Below are positions 31,358 through 38,800 of a DNA stretch of 61,979 nucleotides, one piece after another; position 1 is the first letter of the stretch; each line of letters starts with the position of its first letter. The notes under the pieces are model-generated. The model was not told the origin of the DNA, did not search any database, and worked only from the letters and a program-made list of their open reading frames with translations. Made by a program: the position numbers and the translations under genes. The DNA is from an uncultured Flavobacteriales bacterium (GTDB taxonomy: Bacteria > Bacteroidota > Bacteroidia > Flavobacteriales_D > Crocinitomicaceae): positions 1 through 61,979 of the forward strand of contig CAJAVU010000076.1 of the NCBI GenBank assembly GCA_903945495.1, given 5' to 3'.

Positions 31358-33637
31358 ATGAAATTTATCTTTTTAATTTTTAGTTTGGTAATTGGAACAT
31401 CGTTCGCGCAAGATAATTGTATCTTCAATTCTCAACAAAAAAAAGGAAGCTTTTATTTCTTTAGCACTTATTTCAAAAGCGATTACAAAACGCCATTAGA
31501 AGGAAAATGTGAATCCTTTATCCAGGGGAAACTTTATGAATCTAGAACGTTTATCTATGGTCATATTTATCAAGAAACACTTTATACTTTGGAGGGGAAA
31601 TTGCGCTCCGAATTTAAAATTACGCAACTACCTAGCGATACACTTTTGGGATCTTTCAAACAATATGCTGAAAACGGAAGCCTAAAACAACATGATATTT
31701 ACTATTACGACAAAACGAAACGCCGTTGTGAATACACGCAAGAATTTTGGCCAAATGGAAAATTAAAGTCAGCCATGCATTTTGCTTGGGCTAAAAAAGA
31801 AGATTTGGATACTTTTGAGTTGGTAAATCATCCTAATCATGTCATTGACGATGAAGGCTATACTTATATGAAATCTGCGTTTGGAAATTACTATTCTTAT
31901 CATGAAAATGGACAATTAAAAGAACGCTATTCGTTCAAACCAGTTTATACTCCTCATTTAGATGAGCTAGCACGTTTTGGTCCCGTTGTTACCTATCATT
32001 CAAATGGACAACTTGCATCAACTGGATTTTATGAGGACAGCAAAAACGATGGTACTTGGATGTTTTATGATACCCTAGGAAACGTCATCGAAGAAAACTA
32101 TTACAAAGACAACCTAAAAACGGGAACATGGAAAGGTTATTATTCAAATGGGAAACCACGATTTATAGCTGTTTATGATGTGAATTCCAATCATCCCTTT
32201 AAACCAAGTTTAACTGAATGGGATGAAAACGGAATTAAGACACACGAGATCATTTATGATTCCGAAGGAAATTATGTCGAACACAAATGGACGAATGACG
32301 GAACAATTGTTCAATCTTACGCCTTCAATGCACGCAACGAACCAACTGGAAGCACGTTAAATTGGTTTGCAAATGGAAAAATGCATACGCGCATGAATCA
32401 CAACCCAAATGCAGATACCATCTATGTTGAATACTACCCAAATCGACAAATGGCTAAGTTGATCCTAACATCAATGTCGGATACGAACCTTGTTTCAAAA
32501 CAGGTTTCAAAGATTTCAATGGAAACTCCTCCTTATAAAGAACTCGTGAAAGTAAAATCGACAAGCGTTTGGTATGAATCGGGAATTTTACAAAGTGAAA
32601 CTATCGATCGTTTATCGCAATCAACCCATTCCGTCTGCATCAAGAATTTTTCTTCAACGGGAACACTTTTGCATTTGATGGAAGACAATTCTAAACTGCG
32701 ACACGAAGAAATTTACTTTCACAATGGTAAATTGGAAAAGGAAGTTAATTCAGTTAAAGGACGATTGTTTGGAAGCTATCGGGAATATGATTCATTAGGG
32801 CAATTACGTGTTGATTTTAATTACTTCGATGGATTAAGACATGGTATTTGTAAGGAGTATTCCACTTCAGGAAAACTTGTTTACGACCAACAATTTGAAA
32901 TGGGTTGTATCGTTAAATCATATCAATCTAAACTACCCAATAAAACAACCTCGCTGTCTTCATTAAGTAGTATCGAAAGAAAAAAAATCATTACCTCTGT
33001 TTATCAGTTGTTAAGTCAAACAAATCAATTTACAACTAAAGATTATTACACTCCAACCGAAATTGATTCATTGGTTGAACGTTTAATGTGGCTAAAAAAA
33101 TCATGGAATACATCCGTTGATTTTCCGCTTGAGGAAGAACAAAATGAGCATCCATTTGCGCATATTGAATTCCATATTCCTGCAGTTTACTATCCCTATT
33201 TTTACAATGGAGATACTACTTCTCCCTTTGTGCGTGATTTCATTAAAACCTTTGACTCCTTGAATTGGGAACTGCCAGCTAAAATGGAAAAAGGAGATAA
33301 TGAATATATTTTCACTCATCAGGATACAAATTTCTACACGTATTCCTTTTATCAAAAACACTTTTACAAATTACTTATGCCTGGTTATGCACGACTTCCG
33401 CACATGTTTCAAAAAAGAGTTGAAATAGATTATGGCGTCAAAAAACGAACCCACCGAGCACCAAGTTTGTCGATTGCTCGCTTCAATTCGTGTGTTTTTA
33501 TGGCCAATTTCACTTATTCAGGAAGGAGTTACCCTATTTATATTTATGATGATGGAACAATGGAATTTGTCAATCGATCCGTTAAATGGGAAGATATTAA
33601 GTCAACGCCTGAAATTCCTGAAATAGGTTGGGATTAA
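31358..33637 (+). CDS. Exported YwqK/MORN-type repeat protein (759 aa)
   Basis: A 759-residue protein with signal peptide (FSLVIGTSFAQ). The first ~530 residues contain many copies of a short repeat of the form Y-xNGQLxxxxxYxxGxxxGxWxxY (for example YHSNGQLASTGFYEDSKNDG near 210-230 and YYSNGKPRFIAVYD). This is the repeat family annotated as toxin-antitoxin YwqK antitoxin or MORN-like in Bacteroidota, where it most often occurs in exported proteins and there is no evidence for a toxin partner. The last ~230 residues form a different, non-repetitive domain I do not recognise. Location probably periplasm or surface. Confidence 0.8.
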   Translation: MKFIFLIFSLVIGTSFAQDNCIFNSQQKKGSFYFFSTYFKSDYKTPLEGKCESFIQGKLYESRTFIYGHIYQETLYTLEGKLRSEFKITQLPSDTLLGSFKQYAENGSLKQHDIYYYDKTKRRCEYTQEFWPNGKLKSAMHFAWAKKEDLDTFELVNHPNHVIDDEGYTYMKSAFGNYYSYHENGQLKERYSFKPVYTPHLDELARFGPVVTYHSNGQLASTGFYEDSKNDGTWMFYDTLGNVIEENYYKDNLKTGTWKGYYSNGKPRFIAVYDVNSNHPFKPSLTEWDENGIKTHEIIYDSEGNYVEHKWTNDGTIVQSYAFNARNEPTGSTLNWFANGKMHTRMNHNPNADTIYVEYYPNRQMAKLILTSMSDTNLVSKQVSKISMETPPYKELVKVKSTSVWYESGILQSETIDRLSQSTHSVCIKNFSSTGTLLHLMEDNSKLRHEEIYFHNGKLEKEVNSVKGRLFGSYREYDSLGQLRVDFNYFDGLRHGICKEYSTSGKLVYDQQFEMGCIVKSYQSKLPNKTTSLSSLSSIERKKIITSVYQLLSQTNQFTTKDYYTPTEIDSLVERLMWLKKSWNTSVDFPLEEEQNEHPFAHIEFHIPAVYYPYFYNGDTTSPFVRDFIKTFDSLNWELPAKMEKGDNEYIFTHQDTNFYTYSFYQKHFYKLLMPGYARLPHMFQKRVEIDYGVKKRTHRAPSLSIARFNSCVFMANFTYSGRSYPIYIYDDGTMEFVNRSVKWEDIKSTPEIPEIGWD

Positions 33638-33653
33638 ATGAATTAATCTAAAA

Positions 33654-34709
33654 TTACAATTCCATGCGCAACTGCTCTGGTTCACCTTCCATGAATCCAC
33701 TAATTTGAAAGCCAAGCAAGCGAATCGGACGTTCCAATGGTGTAAATTGAATCGTTAATTCATCTGCTAACAACTTCAATTGTTCCATGGTCTTTATACC
33801 TTCTGGTAATGTTTTAGAACGATTACGCACTGTGAAATCATTGTATTTCACTTTTAAAGTCAATGATTTACCCAACTTTCCAAATCGCTGATAACGCTCC
33901 CAAACAGAATTCAACATTCGTTCTGATAAATCCAAGAAACGGTTCGTATCGAAAATATCGGCATGCAAAGTTGTTTCAGCGGCAATACTTTTTCGCTCGC
34001 GATCTGGAACAACTGGACGGTTATCAATTCCGCGACAAATATCAAACAGGAACTTTCCTGCTTTACCAAAATGTTGCGTTAATTGTTCAAGACTAAATCC
34101 TTTTAAATCTTTCCCTTTGTATATCTGCAATTCATGCATTCGATCGGCAGTCACCTTCCCTACTCCAAAAAAACGTTCGATTGGCAATTCATTGACATAC
34201 GCTTGTGCTTCTTCAGGAGTAATGACAAACAAGCCATTTGGTTTATCTTGGTCGGAAGCCAATTTCGCTAAAAACTTACTATATGAAACACCAGCTGATG
34301 CGACTAAACCCAATTCAGTTTTGATATCCGTTTTGATGGCTTGAGCAATAAAAGTAGCGGATGCCATTTGTTGTTTATTCTCCGTTACATCCAAAAATGC
34401 TTCATCCAACGCAAGTGGTTCAATCATATCCGTGTAACGATGAAAAATGGTGTGAATATGATTCGAAATTTCCTTGTAGCGCGCAAAATTTGGTTTCACA
34501 AAAATCAACTCAGGACACAACTTTACGGCTGTTTGAGAATTCATTGCTGACTTTACTCCAAACTTTCTAGCTTCATAACTAGCTGCTGCAATTACACCAC
34601 GTTCTCTGGTTCCGCCAACTGCAACAGGTTTTCCTATCAAATCAGGATTATCCAATTGTTCCACCGATGCATAAAAAGCATCCATATCGATATGAATGAT
34701 TTTTCTCAT
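33654..34709 (-). CDS. dinB: DNA polymerase IV (Y family)
   Basis: A 351-residue Y-family polymerase. Catalytic acidic residues appear in IHIDMDAFYASVEQ (residues 5-18) and LALDEAFLDVTE (near 102-113). The steric region YEARKFGVKSAM is normal, HhH motifs follow near 175-205, and the little finger domain starts near 235. The C-terminal EQLRMEL resembles a beta-clamp-binding peptide. It performs translesion synthesis with low fidelity. It follows the TerC-family gene by 18 bases in the same direction. A second, different DinB homologue is at 50128-51345. Confidence 0.94.
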   Translation of the reverse strand: MRKIIHIDMDAFYASVEQLDNPDLIGKPVAVGGTRERGVIAAASYEARKFGVKSAMNSQTAVKLCPELIFVKPNFARYKEISNHIHTIFHRYTDMIEPLALDEAFLDVTENKQQMASATFIAQAIKTDIKTELGLVASAGVSYSKFLAKLASDQDKPNGLFVITPEEAQAYVNELPIERFFGVGKVTADRMHELQIYKGKDLKGFSLEQLTQHFGKAGKFLFDICRGIDNRPVVPDRERKSIAAETTLHADIFDTNRFLDLSERMLNSVWERYQRFGKLGKSLTLKVKYNDFTVRNRSKTLPEGIKTMEQLKLLADELTIQFTPLERPIRLLGFQISGFMEGEPEQLRMEL

Positions 34710-34727
34710 AATGGATTTTGAAGGAAA

Positions 34728-35486
34728 TTAATTTTTCTTCTGAAAGAATTTCGCAGAAAGTAATGGAATGATAAAAATCAACAGTGTTAATGCAGAAACA
34801 AATAAATCGAATTCTTCTGATTCAATCCATTTGAAGTTTGGAAAGAAATGTACAACCAAAGCGAAACACAATTTCAAGCCTAAAATTCCAATTACCAAGA
34901 AAGCTGATTTCTCCAAAAACGGATACTTATCCATTAAAACCACGAAGTATTTCGCAACATAACGCATTGCAAGAATCCCGATAAAAACTCCAGTACAAAT
35001 GATGAAAATATTCGGTGTATAAGCGACAACGGCGAAAATATTGTCAATTGAAAATACAATATCCATAAACTCAACTGCAATCACAGTTGACCAAAAAACA
35101 CCAAACATTCCGACAGTTGAACGGTACAACACACTTTTCTTGGTATCTTGAACTTCTTCATCAATTTCCTCTTGAGATCCTTTCGCGAAATGACTAATCG
35201 CCATGTACAATAAATACAATCCACCAATTGGTTTTAACCACCATATTTCAAGAATATGTTCCACCAAAACAAGTGCAATTCCTCGAAACAAATACGCTCC
35301 TAAAATACCATAACGCAATGCTTTCGCTTGTTGATCTTCTGGTAAATCTTTTACCATCGTTGCTAAAACAGCAGCGTTATCAAACGACAAGATGACTTCC
35401 AATAAAAGAATTCCCAAGACAAGAAAAATGGCATTCAATGGATGCTCCGTTAAAATCTTCATTAAATCTGCCCACTGCTCAGCCAT
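34728..35486 (-). CDS. TerC family integral membrane protein
   Basis: A 252-residue protein with seven or so hydrophobic segments and the two diagnostic acidic membrane motifs of TerC/Alx: LEVILSFDNAAVLATMVKDL (near 29-48) and VEFMDIVFSIDNIFAVVAY (near 142-160). Relatives export manganese or confer tellurium/pH tolerance; metal transport is the most supported role for the family. A TATCTTTG promoter element lies 19 bases upstream of the start. Probably cotranscribed with the downstream dinB gene. Confidence 0.9.
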   Translation of the reverse strand: MAEQWADLMKILTEHPLNAIFLVLGILLLEVILSFDNAAVLATMVKDLPEDQQAKALRYGILGAYLFRGIALVLVEHILEIWWLKPIGGLYLLYMAISHFAKGSQEEIDEEVQDTKKSVLYRSTVGMFGVFWSTVIAVEFMDIVFSIDNIFAVVAYTPNIFIICTGVFIGILAMRYVAKYFVVLMDKYPFLEKSAFLVIGILGLKLCFALVVHFFPNFKWIESEEFDLFVSALTLLIFIIPLLSAKFFQKKN

Positions 35487-35505
35487 ACTTCATTTTTTGT
35501 TTGTA

Positions 35506-35513
35506 CAAAGATA
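35506..35513 (-). promoter_or_regulatory. Promoter -7 element for the TerC-dinB pair
   Basis: The minus strand reads TATCTTTG (exact TAnnTTTG) 19 bases before the ATG of the TerC-family gene. No consensus -33 is visible. Confidence 0.5.
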
Positions 35514-35599
35514 GTTTTAGAATTTTAAAAATGGGAATCTGCTGAATTTTATGTTTGATTCAAAAGAACTTTTTTATTAACTTAATTGATAAATTGATT

Positions 35600-35665
35600 T
35601 GACACGGATAGGTCACTCGGTAGTAGGGACAGGTCGCGACCTGTCCCTACCAATGCTCCTATCCC
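35600..35665. repeat. REP palindrome upstream of the RAYT transposase
   Basis: A perfect 28-bp palindrome spans 35623-35650 with core ggacaggtcgcgacctgtcc. It is preceded by a partial unit (gataggtcactcggtagta) and followed by accaatgctcctatcccc. The palindrome and both flanks recur inside the RAYT gene at about 35968-36053, so the homologous unit is longer than the palindrome itself. Confidence 0.9.
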
Positions 35666-35703
35666 CAAAAACAAATCATTATCATTTATTTCAACTTAAC
35701 CAA

Positions 35704-36258
35704 ATGAAAAAACGAAAATTAAACCGCCTTAACAATTTCGATTACCGAACTCAAACTGTCTATTTTGTAACTACCAACACGCATCAATTTAAACATCATT
35801 TCGGGAAGGTCGTCAAAGGAAAAATGAATCTGAATTCATTCGGTGAAATTGTTCAAAATCAACTTTTATGGTTGGAAGAAAATTATAGCTACGTTCATCT
35901 ACACAATTATGTGATAATGCCAAATCACGTGCATATCTTATTGGAAATTAATCAAGGTTTGATTGGCAGGGACAGATCGCTCGATAGCAGGGACAGGTCG
36001 CTCGGTAGTACGGACAGGTCGCGACCTGTCCCTACCGATGCTCCTATCCCCAAAATCAAATCCTTGTCATCAATCATCGGTGCGTTTAAAACAACATCAT
36101 CCAAACAAATACACTTAAATGGGAATTTGGATTTTAACTGGCATCGCTCTTTTCATGATGTAATTGTCGACGATGAAATTGCCTTTAATAAAATTAATTG
36201 CTACATAAATGAAAATCCATTAAAATGGAAACTTGATAAATTAAATGTGTCGGAATAA
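35704..36258 (+). CDS. REP-associated tyrosine transposase (RAYT, Y1/HUH family) with a REP unit inside the frame
   Basis: A 184-residue HUH single-strand transposase homologue. The ATG at 35704 (MKKRKLNRLNNFDYRTQTVYFVT) is the natural start; the longer open frame upstream crosses a REP palindrome. The FVTTNTH strand is followed by the HUH metal site in YVIMPNHVHILLEI (near 72-85), LSSIIGAFKTTSSKQI (near 120-135), FNWHRSFHDVIV and the C-terminal YINENPLKWKLD. Between HILLEI and LSSIIGAF lies an Arg/Ser/Asp-rich insert of about 30 residues (RDRSLDSRDRSLGSTDRSR) encoded entirely by REP sequence. RAYTs are domesticated IS200/IS605-like enzymes thought to mobilise REP elements. Flanking genes (TerC, uvrB) are unrelated. 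Confidence 0.9.
   Translation: MKKRKLNRLNNFDYRTQTVYFVTTNTHQFKHHFGKVVKGKMNLNSFGEIVQNQLLWLEENYSYVHLHNYVIMPNHVHILLEINQGLIGRDRSLDSRDRSLGSTDRSRPVPTDAPIPKIKSLSSIIGAFKTTSSKQIHLNGNLDFNWHRSFHDVIVDDEIAFNKINCYINENPLKWKLDKLNVSE
35968..36053. repeat. REP array within the RAYT coding sequence
   Basis: Three head-to-tail units of about 21 bp related to ggacaggtcgctcggtagta end in the palindrome at 36012-36031 (ggacaggtcgcgacctgtcc). The flank cctaccgatgctcctatccccaaaa follows, as in the copy upstream of the gene. The repeat maintains the reading frame of the transposase. Confidence 0.9.
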
Positions 36259-36305
36259 ACATTGAAAAAATCAAAAAACACTAAAACTTTCATGTGGATT
36301 TAAAG

Positions 36306-36313
36306 TATCTTTG
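36306..36313 (+). promoter_or_regulatory. uvrB promoter -7 element, four bases before the ATG
   Basis: TATCTTTG, an exact TAnnTTTG match, ends four bases before the uvrB ATG at 36318, implying an mRNA with almost no leader. Confidence 0.55.
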
Positions 36314-36317
36314 AAAA

Positions 36318-38342
36318 ATGGAATTCCAACTCGAATCAGACTTTCAGCCAACAGGTGATCAACCAGATGCAATTCGGCAATTAGTTGAAGGATTGAATGC
36401 TGGAGTGCAGCATCAAACCTTGCTTGGTGTGACAGGAAGCGGTAAAACGTTTACAATTGCAAACGTGATTCGGGATGTCAATCGTCCTACATTGATTTTG
36501 TCGCACAATAAAACATTGGCGGCGCAGTTGTATGGAGAATTCAAGCAGTTTTTCCCACATAACTCAGTCGAATATTTCGTTTCATACTATGATTATTATC
36601 AACCAGAAGCTTTTATGCCGGTTACTGGAACGTATATCGAAAAGGATTTACAAGTAAACGATGAATTAGAGAAATTGCGATTATCGGCTACATCTGCTTT
36701 ACTTTCAGGTCGAAAAGATGTGATAATTGTTTCATCGGTTTCCTGTATTTATGGTATTGGAAATCCGAATGAGTTTGCGAATAGTATTATCAGTCTGCGT
36801 GTTGGACAAACCGTTTCACGCAATAAGTTCTTGTTCAAACTTGTTGAAAATCTTTACTCAAGAGCCAATATCGACTTCAAACGAGGCATGTTCCGTGTAA
36901 AAGGTGATACAGTTGATATTTTCTTAGCGTATGCAGATCACGCCATTCGCATTGAATTTTGGGGAGACGATATCGAGGCGATTTCTTCGATTGATCCAGT
37001 TTCCAATTCCAAAATTGAAGTATTCCAAGACATTAATATTTATCCCGCAAATATTTTCGTTTCAAGTCCTGAAACAACGCGAAAAGCAATTGACCAAATC
37101 GGTGAAGACATGGTCGTACAGGTTGCAAATTTCAGAGCTGAAGGAAAAATTGAAGAAGCGAAACGTTTAGAAGAACGCGTCAATTACGATATGGAAATGA
37201 TTCGAGAATTGGGTTATTGCTCAGGAATTGAGAACTATTCGCGTTATTTCGATCAACGTCAGCCGGGTGAACGACCATTCTGTTTATTGGATTATTTTCC
37301 AGATGATTTCTTAATGGTAATTGATGAAAGTCATGTTACGATTCCTCAAATTCGAGCAATGTACGGTGGTGATCGTGCACGTAAAATCAACTTGGTGGAT
37401 TATGGTTTTCGTTTACAAGCTGCCATTGACAATCGCCCGTTGAAATTTGAAGAGTTCGAAACCTTGTTAAATCAAGCAATTTATGTTTCAGCAACTCCAG
37501 CAGATTACGAAGTAGAAAAATCTGAGGGAATATTGGTTGAGCAGGTTATTCGTCCAACTGGATTATTGGATCCAATCATCGATGTGCGACCAAGTTTAAA
37601 TCAAATTGACAATTTGATTGAAGAAATTCATTTACGAATAGATAGAGACGAACGCACGCTTGTAACAACCTTAACCAAACGAATGGCGGAAGAGTTGTAC
37701 AAATACTTGGATCGATTGGGAATTCCATGTCGTTATATTCATAGTGATGTAGATACAATCGAACGTGTTGAAATCTTGAGACAATTGCGCCTAGGAACGT
37801 TTGATGTATTGATAGGTGTGAATTTATTACGTGAAGGATTGGATTTACCTGAAGTTTCATTGGTAGCCATTCTCGATGCCGACAAAGAAGGATTCTTGAG
37901 AAATGTGAGATCGCTAGTACAAACAACAGGACGTGCAGCGCGAAATGTCAATGGAATGGTGATTATGTACGCCGATAAAATGACCGATTCAATGCGCAAA
38001 ACAATTGAAGAAACAGCGCGTAGAAGAGCGATTCAAATTGCTTACAACGAAGTACATGGAAAAGTTCCGACAGCATTGAATAAATCCAAAGCAAAAATCA
38101 TGGAATCCACAAAAGTGGCAGATGGCGACCCTGCGACGCGCAATTTGAAATACGAATACACAGAAGAATTATCGATTGCTGCCGATCCAGTGATTGCCTA
38201 CATGTCAGTTGAACAATTGGAGAAAACAATAACGTTCACACGCAAAGAAATGGAAAAAGCCGCGAAAGAATTAGATTTCATTGAAGCGGCAAGACTACGT
38301 GATGAATTGTATGCGCTGGAGGAACGAAAAAAATCTCTTTAA
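36318..38342 (+). CDS. uvrB: Excinuclease ABC subunit B
   Basis: A 674-residue UvrB, the damage-verifying helicase-like subunit of bacterial nucleotide excision repair. Walker A is GVTGSGKTF (near 37-45). The beta-hairpin region YYDYYQPEAFMPVTGTYIEKD lies near 92-112. DESHVTIPQIRAMYGGDRARK (near 337) is the DEAD-type motif, and YVSATPADYE, LLREGLDLPE and QTTGRAARN are the further helicase motifs. The C-terminal UVR domain (about 632-670) that contacts UvrC is present. Length is normal. Single gene with its own promoter; no uvrA or uvrC in the window. Confidence 0.97.
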   Translation: MEFQLESDFQPTGDQPDAIRQLVEGLNAGVQHQTLLGVTGSGKTFTIANVIRDVNRPTLILSHNKTLAAQLYGEFKQFFPHNSVEYFVSYYDYYQPEAFMPVTGTYIEKDLQVNDELEKLRLSATSALLSGRKDVIIVSSVSCIYGIGNPNEFANSIISLRVGQTVSRNKFLFKLVENLYSRANIDFKRGMFRVKGDTVDIFLAYADHAIRIEFWGDDIEAISSIDPVSNSKIEVFQDINIYPANIFVSSPETTRKAIDQIGEDMVVQVANFRAEGKIEEAKRLEERVNYDMEMIRELGYCSGIENYSRYFDQRQPGERPFCLLDYFPDDFLMVIDESHVTIPQIRAMYGGDRARKINLVDYGFRLQAAIDNRPLKFEEFETLLNQAIYVSATPADYEVEKSEGILVEQVIRPTGLLDPIIDVRPSLNQIDNLIEEIHLRIDRDERTLVTTLTKRMAEELYKYLDRLGIPCRYIHSDVDTIERVEILRQLRLGTFDVLIGVNLLREGLDLPEVSLVAILDADKEGFLRNVRSLVQTTGRAARNVNGMVIMYADKMTDSMRKTIEETARRRAIQIAYNEVHGKVPTALNKSKAKIMESTKVADGDPATRNLKYEYTEELSIAADPVIAYMSVEQLEKTITFTRKEMEKAAKELDFIEAARLRDELYALEERKKSL

Positions 38343-38392
38343 AATTCTAACATATCCTTTTAATATTCAATCATTTTACTATTTTCGTCTTT

Positions 38393-38800
38393 ATGATCAC
38401 TGTTAAAACCACAATTCACTCTTCGATGGAGCTCGTTTGGGCTGCTTGGACTTCTGCAGAACATATTACACAATGGACATTCGCGTCGGATGATTGGCAT
38501 GCGCCTTATGCAGAAATAGATTTAAAAGTCGGTGGACGTTTCATGACCACCATGGCTGCAAAGGATGAAAGCTTTTCATTTGACTTAAGCGGAACATTCA
38601 CAGCGGTTGAACAATTTAAAACAATTGCTTACACGTTGGATGATGAGCGAAAAGTTGTGATTGAGTTTTCGGAAAAGGATGGTGACATAACTGTTGTAGA
38701 ATCATTTGAACCAGAATCTCAAAATCCACATGAATTACAAGCATCAGGTTGGCAGATGATTTTAAACAATTTCAAAAAATACGTTGATTCACTTTCATAA
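38393..38800 (+). CDS. AHSA1-type SRPBCC domain protein
   Basis: A 135-residue START/SRPBCC fold protein of the AHSA1 type: TIHSSMELVWAAWTSAEHITQW (residues 7-28), KVGGRFMTTM, and a C-terminal helix GWQMILNNFKKYV. These small cytoplasmic proteins bind hydrophobic ligands or chaperones; a specific role cannot be read from sequence. First of five closely spaced plus-strand genes (38393-40513), eight bases before the next SRPBCC gene. A TATTTTCG promoter-like element lies just upstream. Confidence 0.85.
   Translation: MITVKTTIHSSMELVWAAWTSAEHITQWTFASDDWHAPYAEIDLKVGGRFMTTMAAKDESFSFDLSGTFTAVEQFKTIAYTLDDERKVVIEFSEKDGDITVVESFEPESQNPHELQASGWQMILNNFKKYVDSLS

Follow-up and report, generated by a model that had tools for sequence, protein, structure and literature searches.

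Can the gene of a transposase carry, as part of its own coding sequence, the very kind of repeat that the enzyme is thought to mobilise, and if so, how would the repeat have come there? This question is raised by a RAYT gene in a 61,979-nt contig of an uncultured Flavobacteriales bacterium, called the window below. The gene (35704..36258, + strand) has a divergently oriented terC-like gene on one side and uvrB on the other, and the ORF, Pfam, NCBIfam and Foldseek point to a RAYT / TnpAREP-like Y1 HuH transposase of 184 aa. The original prediction spans 35600-36258; the start of the gene is most likely the ATG at 35704, not 35600, since homologues begin at the same M-K-x-R-K. The stretch upstream of 35704 is open in the frame of the gene both in the window and in its nearest relative, HJF.29, and homology lends no support to its translation.

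The 184-aa protein scored 24 bits against Pfam Y1_Tnp, barely passing the gathering cut-off of 23, and 50 bits in two stretches against NCBIfam NF047646 REP_Tyr_transpos, which is under the curated cut-off of 80. An AlphaFold2 model built on an alignment of 45 proteins reached a mean pLDDT of 85.3. When it was compared with the PDB by Foldseek, all matches with E < 0.001 were Y1 transposase entries, with ISDra2 and IS608 first and the REP-bound TnpAREP 4er8 tenth. A phmmer search of solved structures gave 8 matches, none with E better than 0.18 and none to a Y1 transposase. The HuH motif with His75 and His77 (35926..35934, +) and the catalytic Tyr167 (36202..36204, +) are invariant in 45/45 aligned proteins, that of the window included. 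Sequence and predicted fold together support the identification of the gene as one for a REP-associated Y1 transposase.

Between PNHVHILLEI and KSLSSIIGAF, this gene contains two 21-nt units followed by the palindrome GTACGGACAGGTCGCGACCTGTCCCTAC, and the whole is read as GRDRSLDSRDRSLGSTDRSRPVPT with no stop, so the predicted repeat array and palindrome do lie inside the RAYT coding sequence without breaking its frame. The units are degenerate REP halves arranged as an in-frame direct repeat (35967..36008, +; 35967-35987 and 35988-36008), and the in-frame REP palindrome of 28 nt (36008..36035, unstranded) is an inverted repeat with a perfect 20-nt core at 36012-36031. Three units of about 21 bp plus a palindrome had been counted originally; the palindrome and two full units were recovered, and the would-be third unit is the left half of the palindrome. 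The left foot of the in-gene REP reads GTAC, and the full GTAG..CTAC double foot is kept only by the copy upstream of the gene. Alignment and model pLDDT delimit a variable loop from the HuH strand to helix C (residues 83-118; 35950..36057, +) that is largely REP-derived and 36 aa long in the window, compared to 7-118 aa in the aligned genes. Residues 91-110 in the insert average a pLDDT of 54 and the adjoining blocks 82 and 79, and the REP-bearing loop is predicted to be exposed and disordered.

An ordinary Arg/Ser/Asp-rich linker that is palindromic by chance would agree with the predicted disorder of the loop. Against this, the perfect 20-nt core GGACAGGTCGCGACCTGTCC has 11 occurrences in the 3.64-Mb genome when up to 3 mismatches are allowed, the two of the window included and 7 of the 11 being exact copies, while the reversed GGACAGGTCGCGACCTGTCC pattern, used as a control, gave 0 matches in the same genome. 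The half-unit GGGACAGGTCGC had 13 matches on both strands together and its control 1. The palindrome thus recurs in the genome as the original prediction had supposed. The survey of RAYT relatives drew on a single sample of 200 genomes from the family, to which ten named loci were added, and 78/200 sampled genomes, that of the window included, had a match to the window protein. The 120 loci examined (L013-L132) yielded 103 ORFs fitting a motif and length filter, 17 loci yielding none, and removal of one duplicate left 102 distinct RAYT genes with the window's own gene counted. The loop between HuH and helix C was scored for inverted repeats against a control piece of the coding sequence just before it, equal in length to the loop save in 10/102 genes whose loop exceeds the possible piece length. 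A strong inverted repeat (score of at least 9, a threshold picked after the data had been seen) was present in 36/102 loops vs 4/102 control pieces, and a score of at least 11 was reached by 31/102 loops vs 0/102 controls; the full series for scores 7-12 is 46/38/36/34/31/31 for the loop vs 26/9/4/1/0/0 for the control. These counts refute chance, and with the genome copies and the survey controls ruling it out, we regard a fortuitous palindrome as virtually impossible. For this gene, neither an insert present in all RAYTs without similarity to dispersed repeats nor a palindrome absent elsewhere was observed.

The nearest relative, the Crocinitomicaceae MAG HJF.29 (G134), has the same gene at the same place with the same neighbours, and its insert occupies the same site with one unit fewer than in the window. 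Over a core of 142 codons the two genes differ by a dN of 0.09 and a dS of 0.53 (omega 0.17), and over 29 codons of the loop omega is 0.43, so that the gene core has been under purifying selection with the REP inside the gene. Since the insert is common to the window and HJF.29 at the same site, it is older than their split, and the protein has been kept since. Of the surveyed RAYTs, 66/102 have a loop score below 9. No allele or locus without the REP (an empty site) was found for the window gene, and the fetched loci that were aligned held no clean empty site for any coding REP.

The same REP with the same flanks had also been noticed upstream of the start codon. An 83-nt stretch at 35603..35685 (+) is indeed 90% identical to 35988-36070 and holds a full double-foot REP (35623-35650; an exact match to GT[AG]G..C[TC]AC), but it is not a second insertion. 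The repeat runs 35 nt beyond the palindrome into transposase coding sequence; its flank reads NAPIPKNKSLS in the matching frame and the gene counterpart DAPIPKIKSLS, and KSLS, with which helix C begins, also occurs in REP-less RAYTs, L036 for example. In HJF.29 a protein search recovered the upstream relic over residues 85-125, with one stop inside, and this copy retains the array in three parts that is seen in the loop of the window gene. Because its flank is gene sequence, the upstream copy is a relic of the gene itself, common to both species, which came from the loop and the start of helix C and not from elsewhere. An independent REP insertion was rejected on the grounds that the flank is coding sequence of the gene and that the same relic occurs in HJF.29. 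Separately, the intergenic stretch between terC and the RAYT gene (35487-35598) is 109/112 identical to HJF.29, while the dS of the RAYT core is 0.53.

Two palindromes at one locus could be kept as a cis-acting control, through which the enzyme, or mRNA hairpins formed by the upstream relic and the in-gene REP, would regulate expression of the transposase. Between the window and HJF.29 the REP core matches at 20/20 positions, compared to 67/108 for the loop around it, and both the leader and the internal copy are kept in the two species. In computed folding, a 471-nt region with the two palindromes paired is better than its shuffles (z -4.55, with 1/100 as good or better), and the energy is -98.7 kcal/mol with pairs limited to span 60, -113.6 with span 150 and -127.8 once long-range pairs are allowed. 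Each palindrome, however, forms a stable local hairpin too, and local hairpins would form first during transcription. A second copy of the core (at most 3 mismatches) was found before the gene in only 5, and after the gene in 5, of the 36 genes with an in-gene palindrome, the window gene and HJF.29 being two of the five with a leader copy, and a strong palindrome is absent from 66/102 surveyed genes altogether. The pairing of the palindromes in the mRNA, as originally suggested, is favoured by energy, but regulation by such pairing is not general because a leader copy occurs in 5/36 genes only and because of the local hairpins. No Rfam match to a structured RNA was obtained in 33500-38500 at E up to 1. 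We consider retention for control of expression unlikely, and continue with the reading in which the REP was inserted into the gene and has been tolerated there.

The repeats in the loops usually take the form GTAGRGRC..GYCYCTAC. A search with this pattern covered 23/27 genomes with a loop score of at least 9, that is, all but G080, G109, G024 and G118, and the pattern was found in 22/23 of them with 1-19 copies each among the matches listed; its control had no match in any of the 23 genomes, again among the matches listed. In the window's own genome, no convincing gene was found over the palindrome at the nine other loci: the frames of at least 60 codons over those nine palindromes, where there are any, have 61-85 codons, bar one of 379, in which the palindrome stands at the very start. 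The in-gene REP might itself be a master copy that gave rise to the dispersed REPs, and not a late arrival. The upstream copy is an instance of DNA having left the gene together with its coding flank, and in 4/23 genomes (G094, G046, G074, G037) the sole match to the double-foot pattern, among the matches listed, lies inside the RAYT gene. Yet the other own-genome matches to 35500-36300 comprise the palindrome and at most one preceding unit, with the coding flank after it in none, and since the double-foot pattern is strict, the single-copy genomes may hold divergent copies. A master copy therefore seems to us quite improbable, and we keep to the arrival of the REP from outside the gene.

A second RAYT gene of the same genome, L053 (G000:C103), has the in-frame palindrome GTAGAGACACACGGCCGTGTGTCTCTAC, the 22-nt core of which has no second match in that genome when up to 3 mismatches are allowed. 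Across the survey, 27/36 genes with an in-gene palindrome have no second core copy in either fetched flank. Because the L053 core is single-copy and these 27 genes are without a second flank copy, in-gene palindromes do not all belong to a visible dispersed or flanking family.

The RAYT genes of relatives hold different REPs in the same HuH-helix C loop. Exact double-foot REPs in RAYT genes number 19 when orthologous duplicates are counted; 11 of these are read as GTA-GRG, 8 as NGT-AGR and none in the third frame, which has a TAG stop. In three Flavobacterium RAYTs (L046, L048, L049) the same core, GGTCGCGACC, occupies another loop, one that precedes HuH, and its frame differs from that of the window; two Oscillospiraceae RAYTs (L051, L052) have another in-frame palindrome before HuH. 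Because both open frames and two loops are in use, the DNA element, judged from these sequences, is the shared unit and the peptide incidental. Conservation of the insert at the peptide level was rejected on the same grounds. As further observations, the leader of L046 holds three REP copies at 64-nt spacing, and in two species (L158, 671-698; L166, 699-726) a class I tRNA synthetase gene carries in-frame double-foot REPs that differ from each other but are almost identically placed, shortly after the Pfam tRNA-synt_1 match. We take this synthetase, by its motif, to be the isoleucyl enzyme.

In-frame REPs in their own RAYT genes are already known from TnpAREP subclass 2.4, described in 2018 (Quentin et al. 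2018, PMC6006769), and the novelty initially seen in the mobilising enzyme as host does not stand. According to the sections of that paper available to us, REPs of subclass 2.4 lie inside tnpAREP genes with the frame intact, generally between HuH and Y and in a peripheral variable region; in-gene REPs are predominant in this subclass (RAYT group 4), which includes double-foot REPs and is abundant in Cyanobacteria and Bacteroidetes. The window gene is of this kind by likeness of features, a formal class not being assigned: it is a Y1 HuH transposase whose motif form NHVH fits the NH[IFV]H of the subclass, with a variable insertion between the HuH strand and helix C, an in-frame REP between HuH and Y, double-foot GT[AG]G..C[TC]AC REPs and a Bacteroidetes host. 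It differs from the entries of Table 1 for subclass 2.4, which are a consensus and not absolute motifs, in having WH instead of WQ (H follows W in 10/45 aligned proteins) and YINENP instead of YIxNNP, and it differs from the subclass, as presented in those sections, in an Asp at the Arg104 position, in the left foot GTAC of the in-gene REP and in the gene-derived relic in its leader.

Other systems resemble the locus less closely. The intragenic GTAG/CGTC REPs of PMC3733652 are likewise in frame in real genes, often with 20-30 residues, and are thought there to be harmless in loops or linkers; their hosts, in contrast, are other genes, many of them for DNA synthesis and repair, and the available part of that report does not name the RAYT gene among them. 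Rickettsia palindromic elements, as presented in the same part, are also palindromic DNA in frame in ORFs, a resemblance by description only, but they are CGTC repeats without a dedicated transposase in several unrelated host genes. The E. coli TnpAREP (PDB 4er8) shares the Y1 HuH fold according to Foldseek, but is 12% identical to the window protein and, as a member of subclass 2.2, has DHLH and no listed insertion between the HuH strand and helix C (Table 1, PMC6006769, as far as available). No in-gene REP is shown in the accessible portions of PMC2817692 and PMC3686654.

Whether the enzyme still acts on such repeats was judged from the GTAG-contact positions (W94, Q95, E100, H101 and R104 in E. 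coli), which were placed by offset from a shared Trp and are occupied by W, H, D, V and D in the window protein. The Arg104 equivalent is Arg in 39/45 aligned proteins and Asp in the window protein alone (codon 156 of the window gene, 36169-36171). In the part of PMC6006769 available, W94, Q95 and R104 are described as well conserved and are not listed among the key motifs of subclass 2.4. Because Asp replaces the GTAG-contacting Arg104 uniquely among 45 proteins, the present activity of the window protein on GTAG is doubtful. With the changes Gln95>His, His101>Val and Arg104>Asp together with the in-gene left foot GTAC, the enzyme may no longer act on its own in-gene REP. The view of the gene as a target of the elements that it mobilises is thus upheld with respect to the dispersed repeat in the loop and weakened with respect to action on GTAG.

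We consider it highly probable that the window carries the gene of a REP-associated Y1 transposase, of the subclass 2.4 / group 4 kind, with an in-frame double-foot REP in a loop predicted to be disordered, and that this REP arrived by HuH chemistry and has been tolerated. Arrival would have involved a single-stranded hairpin, HuH cleavage and strand transfer by this or a related RAYT, in which case the gene may have been targeted by the very enzyme it encodes. In vitro, TnpAREPs of groups 2 and 3 cleave REPs at CT or CA, leaving a 3'-OH, according to the available part of PMC8266576. Survival of the REP would be due to two features: of the three frames of a 28-bp GTAG palindrome two lack a stop, and the loop can take up additional residues. 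The 21-nt units would later have grown and shrunk by slippage.

In many double-foot REPs, the perfect palindrome runs past the GTAG/CTAC feet into site-specific sequence (91 sites). Extensions of at least 5 bp, an arm threshold also picked after the data had been seen, were counted at 11/21 sites in RAYT genes (9/16 without orthologous duplicates), 37/48 intergenic sites (unthinned, orthologous pairs included) and 12/18 sites in other open frames, many of which are probably spurious, and at 0/2 sites in tRNA-synthetase genes and 0/2 in RAYT leaders. In a control with left and right flanks paired across sites, such extensions appeared in 95/8190 pairs, and in 7/420 among the in-RAYT sites. The in-RAYT set includes L140, missed by the motif and added by hand; the leader sites L007 and L087, neither of which reaches 5 bp, were moved out of the RAYT class, and the non-redundant count drops L086, L090, L104, L124 and L182 as orthologous or paralogous duplicates. 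One extension, of 46 bp at L169, is situated at the end of a contig and could be an artefact of assembly. Extended palindromes in RAYT genes include L108, L102, L128, L083 and L140; the arms at coding sites reach up to 19 bp (L140, L108, L102), and a T-tract is absent. The window gene shows the feature weakly, as TCGGTAG..CTACCGA around a 3-nt bulge. In related genes the arms differ in step, with GCGATT/AATCGC in L084 and L086 and CGGTT/AACCG in L091, a pattern that fits either a pairing constraint or copying. In L084, L086, L091, L112, L119, L128 and L131, tandem repeats beside the REP reproduce one arm of the palindrome, as though that arm had been amplified.

Six genomes (L205-L210) share an orthologous site where a REP forms the top of an intrinsic terminator. 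The feet of this REP mostly change in step (GTAG/CTAC; GTAC/GTAC in L208; GTAA/TTAC in L209), as do mostly its outer arms (CCCCTG/CAGGGG; CCCTTG/CAAGGG in L209), with L210 as the exception in which one foot pair is broken. Among four more distant genomes at this site, L212 and L213 have an ordinary hairpin and L211 and L214 align poorly, and at another site REP-type hairpins and hairpins of other types have replaced one another. Intergenic extended palindromes are at least partly terminators. Selection for terminators as the sole cause of the extensions is plausible at intergenic sites but not at coding ones, which need another cause because they are without a T-tract. The REP hairpin might enter the apex of existing hairpins, or prime the copying of its own flank by template switching and so build an in-frame inverted copy, a tentative proposal that we hold with somewhat less than even confidence. 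Template switching has been reported to homogenise inverted repeats (PMC7202029, PMC8604942, available in part). A limited set of literature, including the accessible parts of PMC8266576 and PMC12306157, yielded no description of extended site-specific arms, and the extended palindromes of double-foot REPs may be new.

This locus offers a clear example of a REP housed in the gene of its presumed mobilising enzyme, at the same site in two species and in a gene that is still constrained, and the reading of REPs in either open frame among relatives shows the unit to be the DNA element. The survey provides material on how RAYTs move REPs, in the form of orthologous sites with and without REPs, and the flank palindromes may record how REPs enter or grow. 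If apex insertion or flank copying did occur, the repeat in the transposase gene would itself shape the loop of the enzyme.
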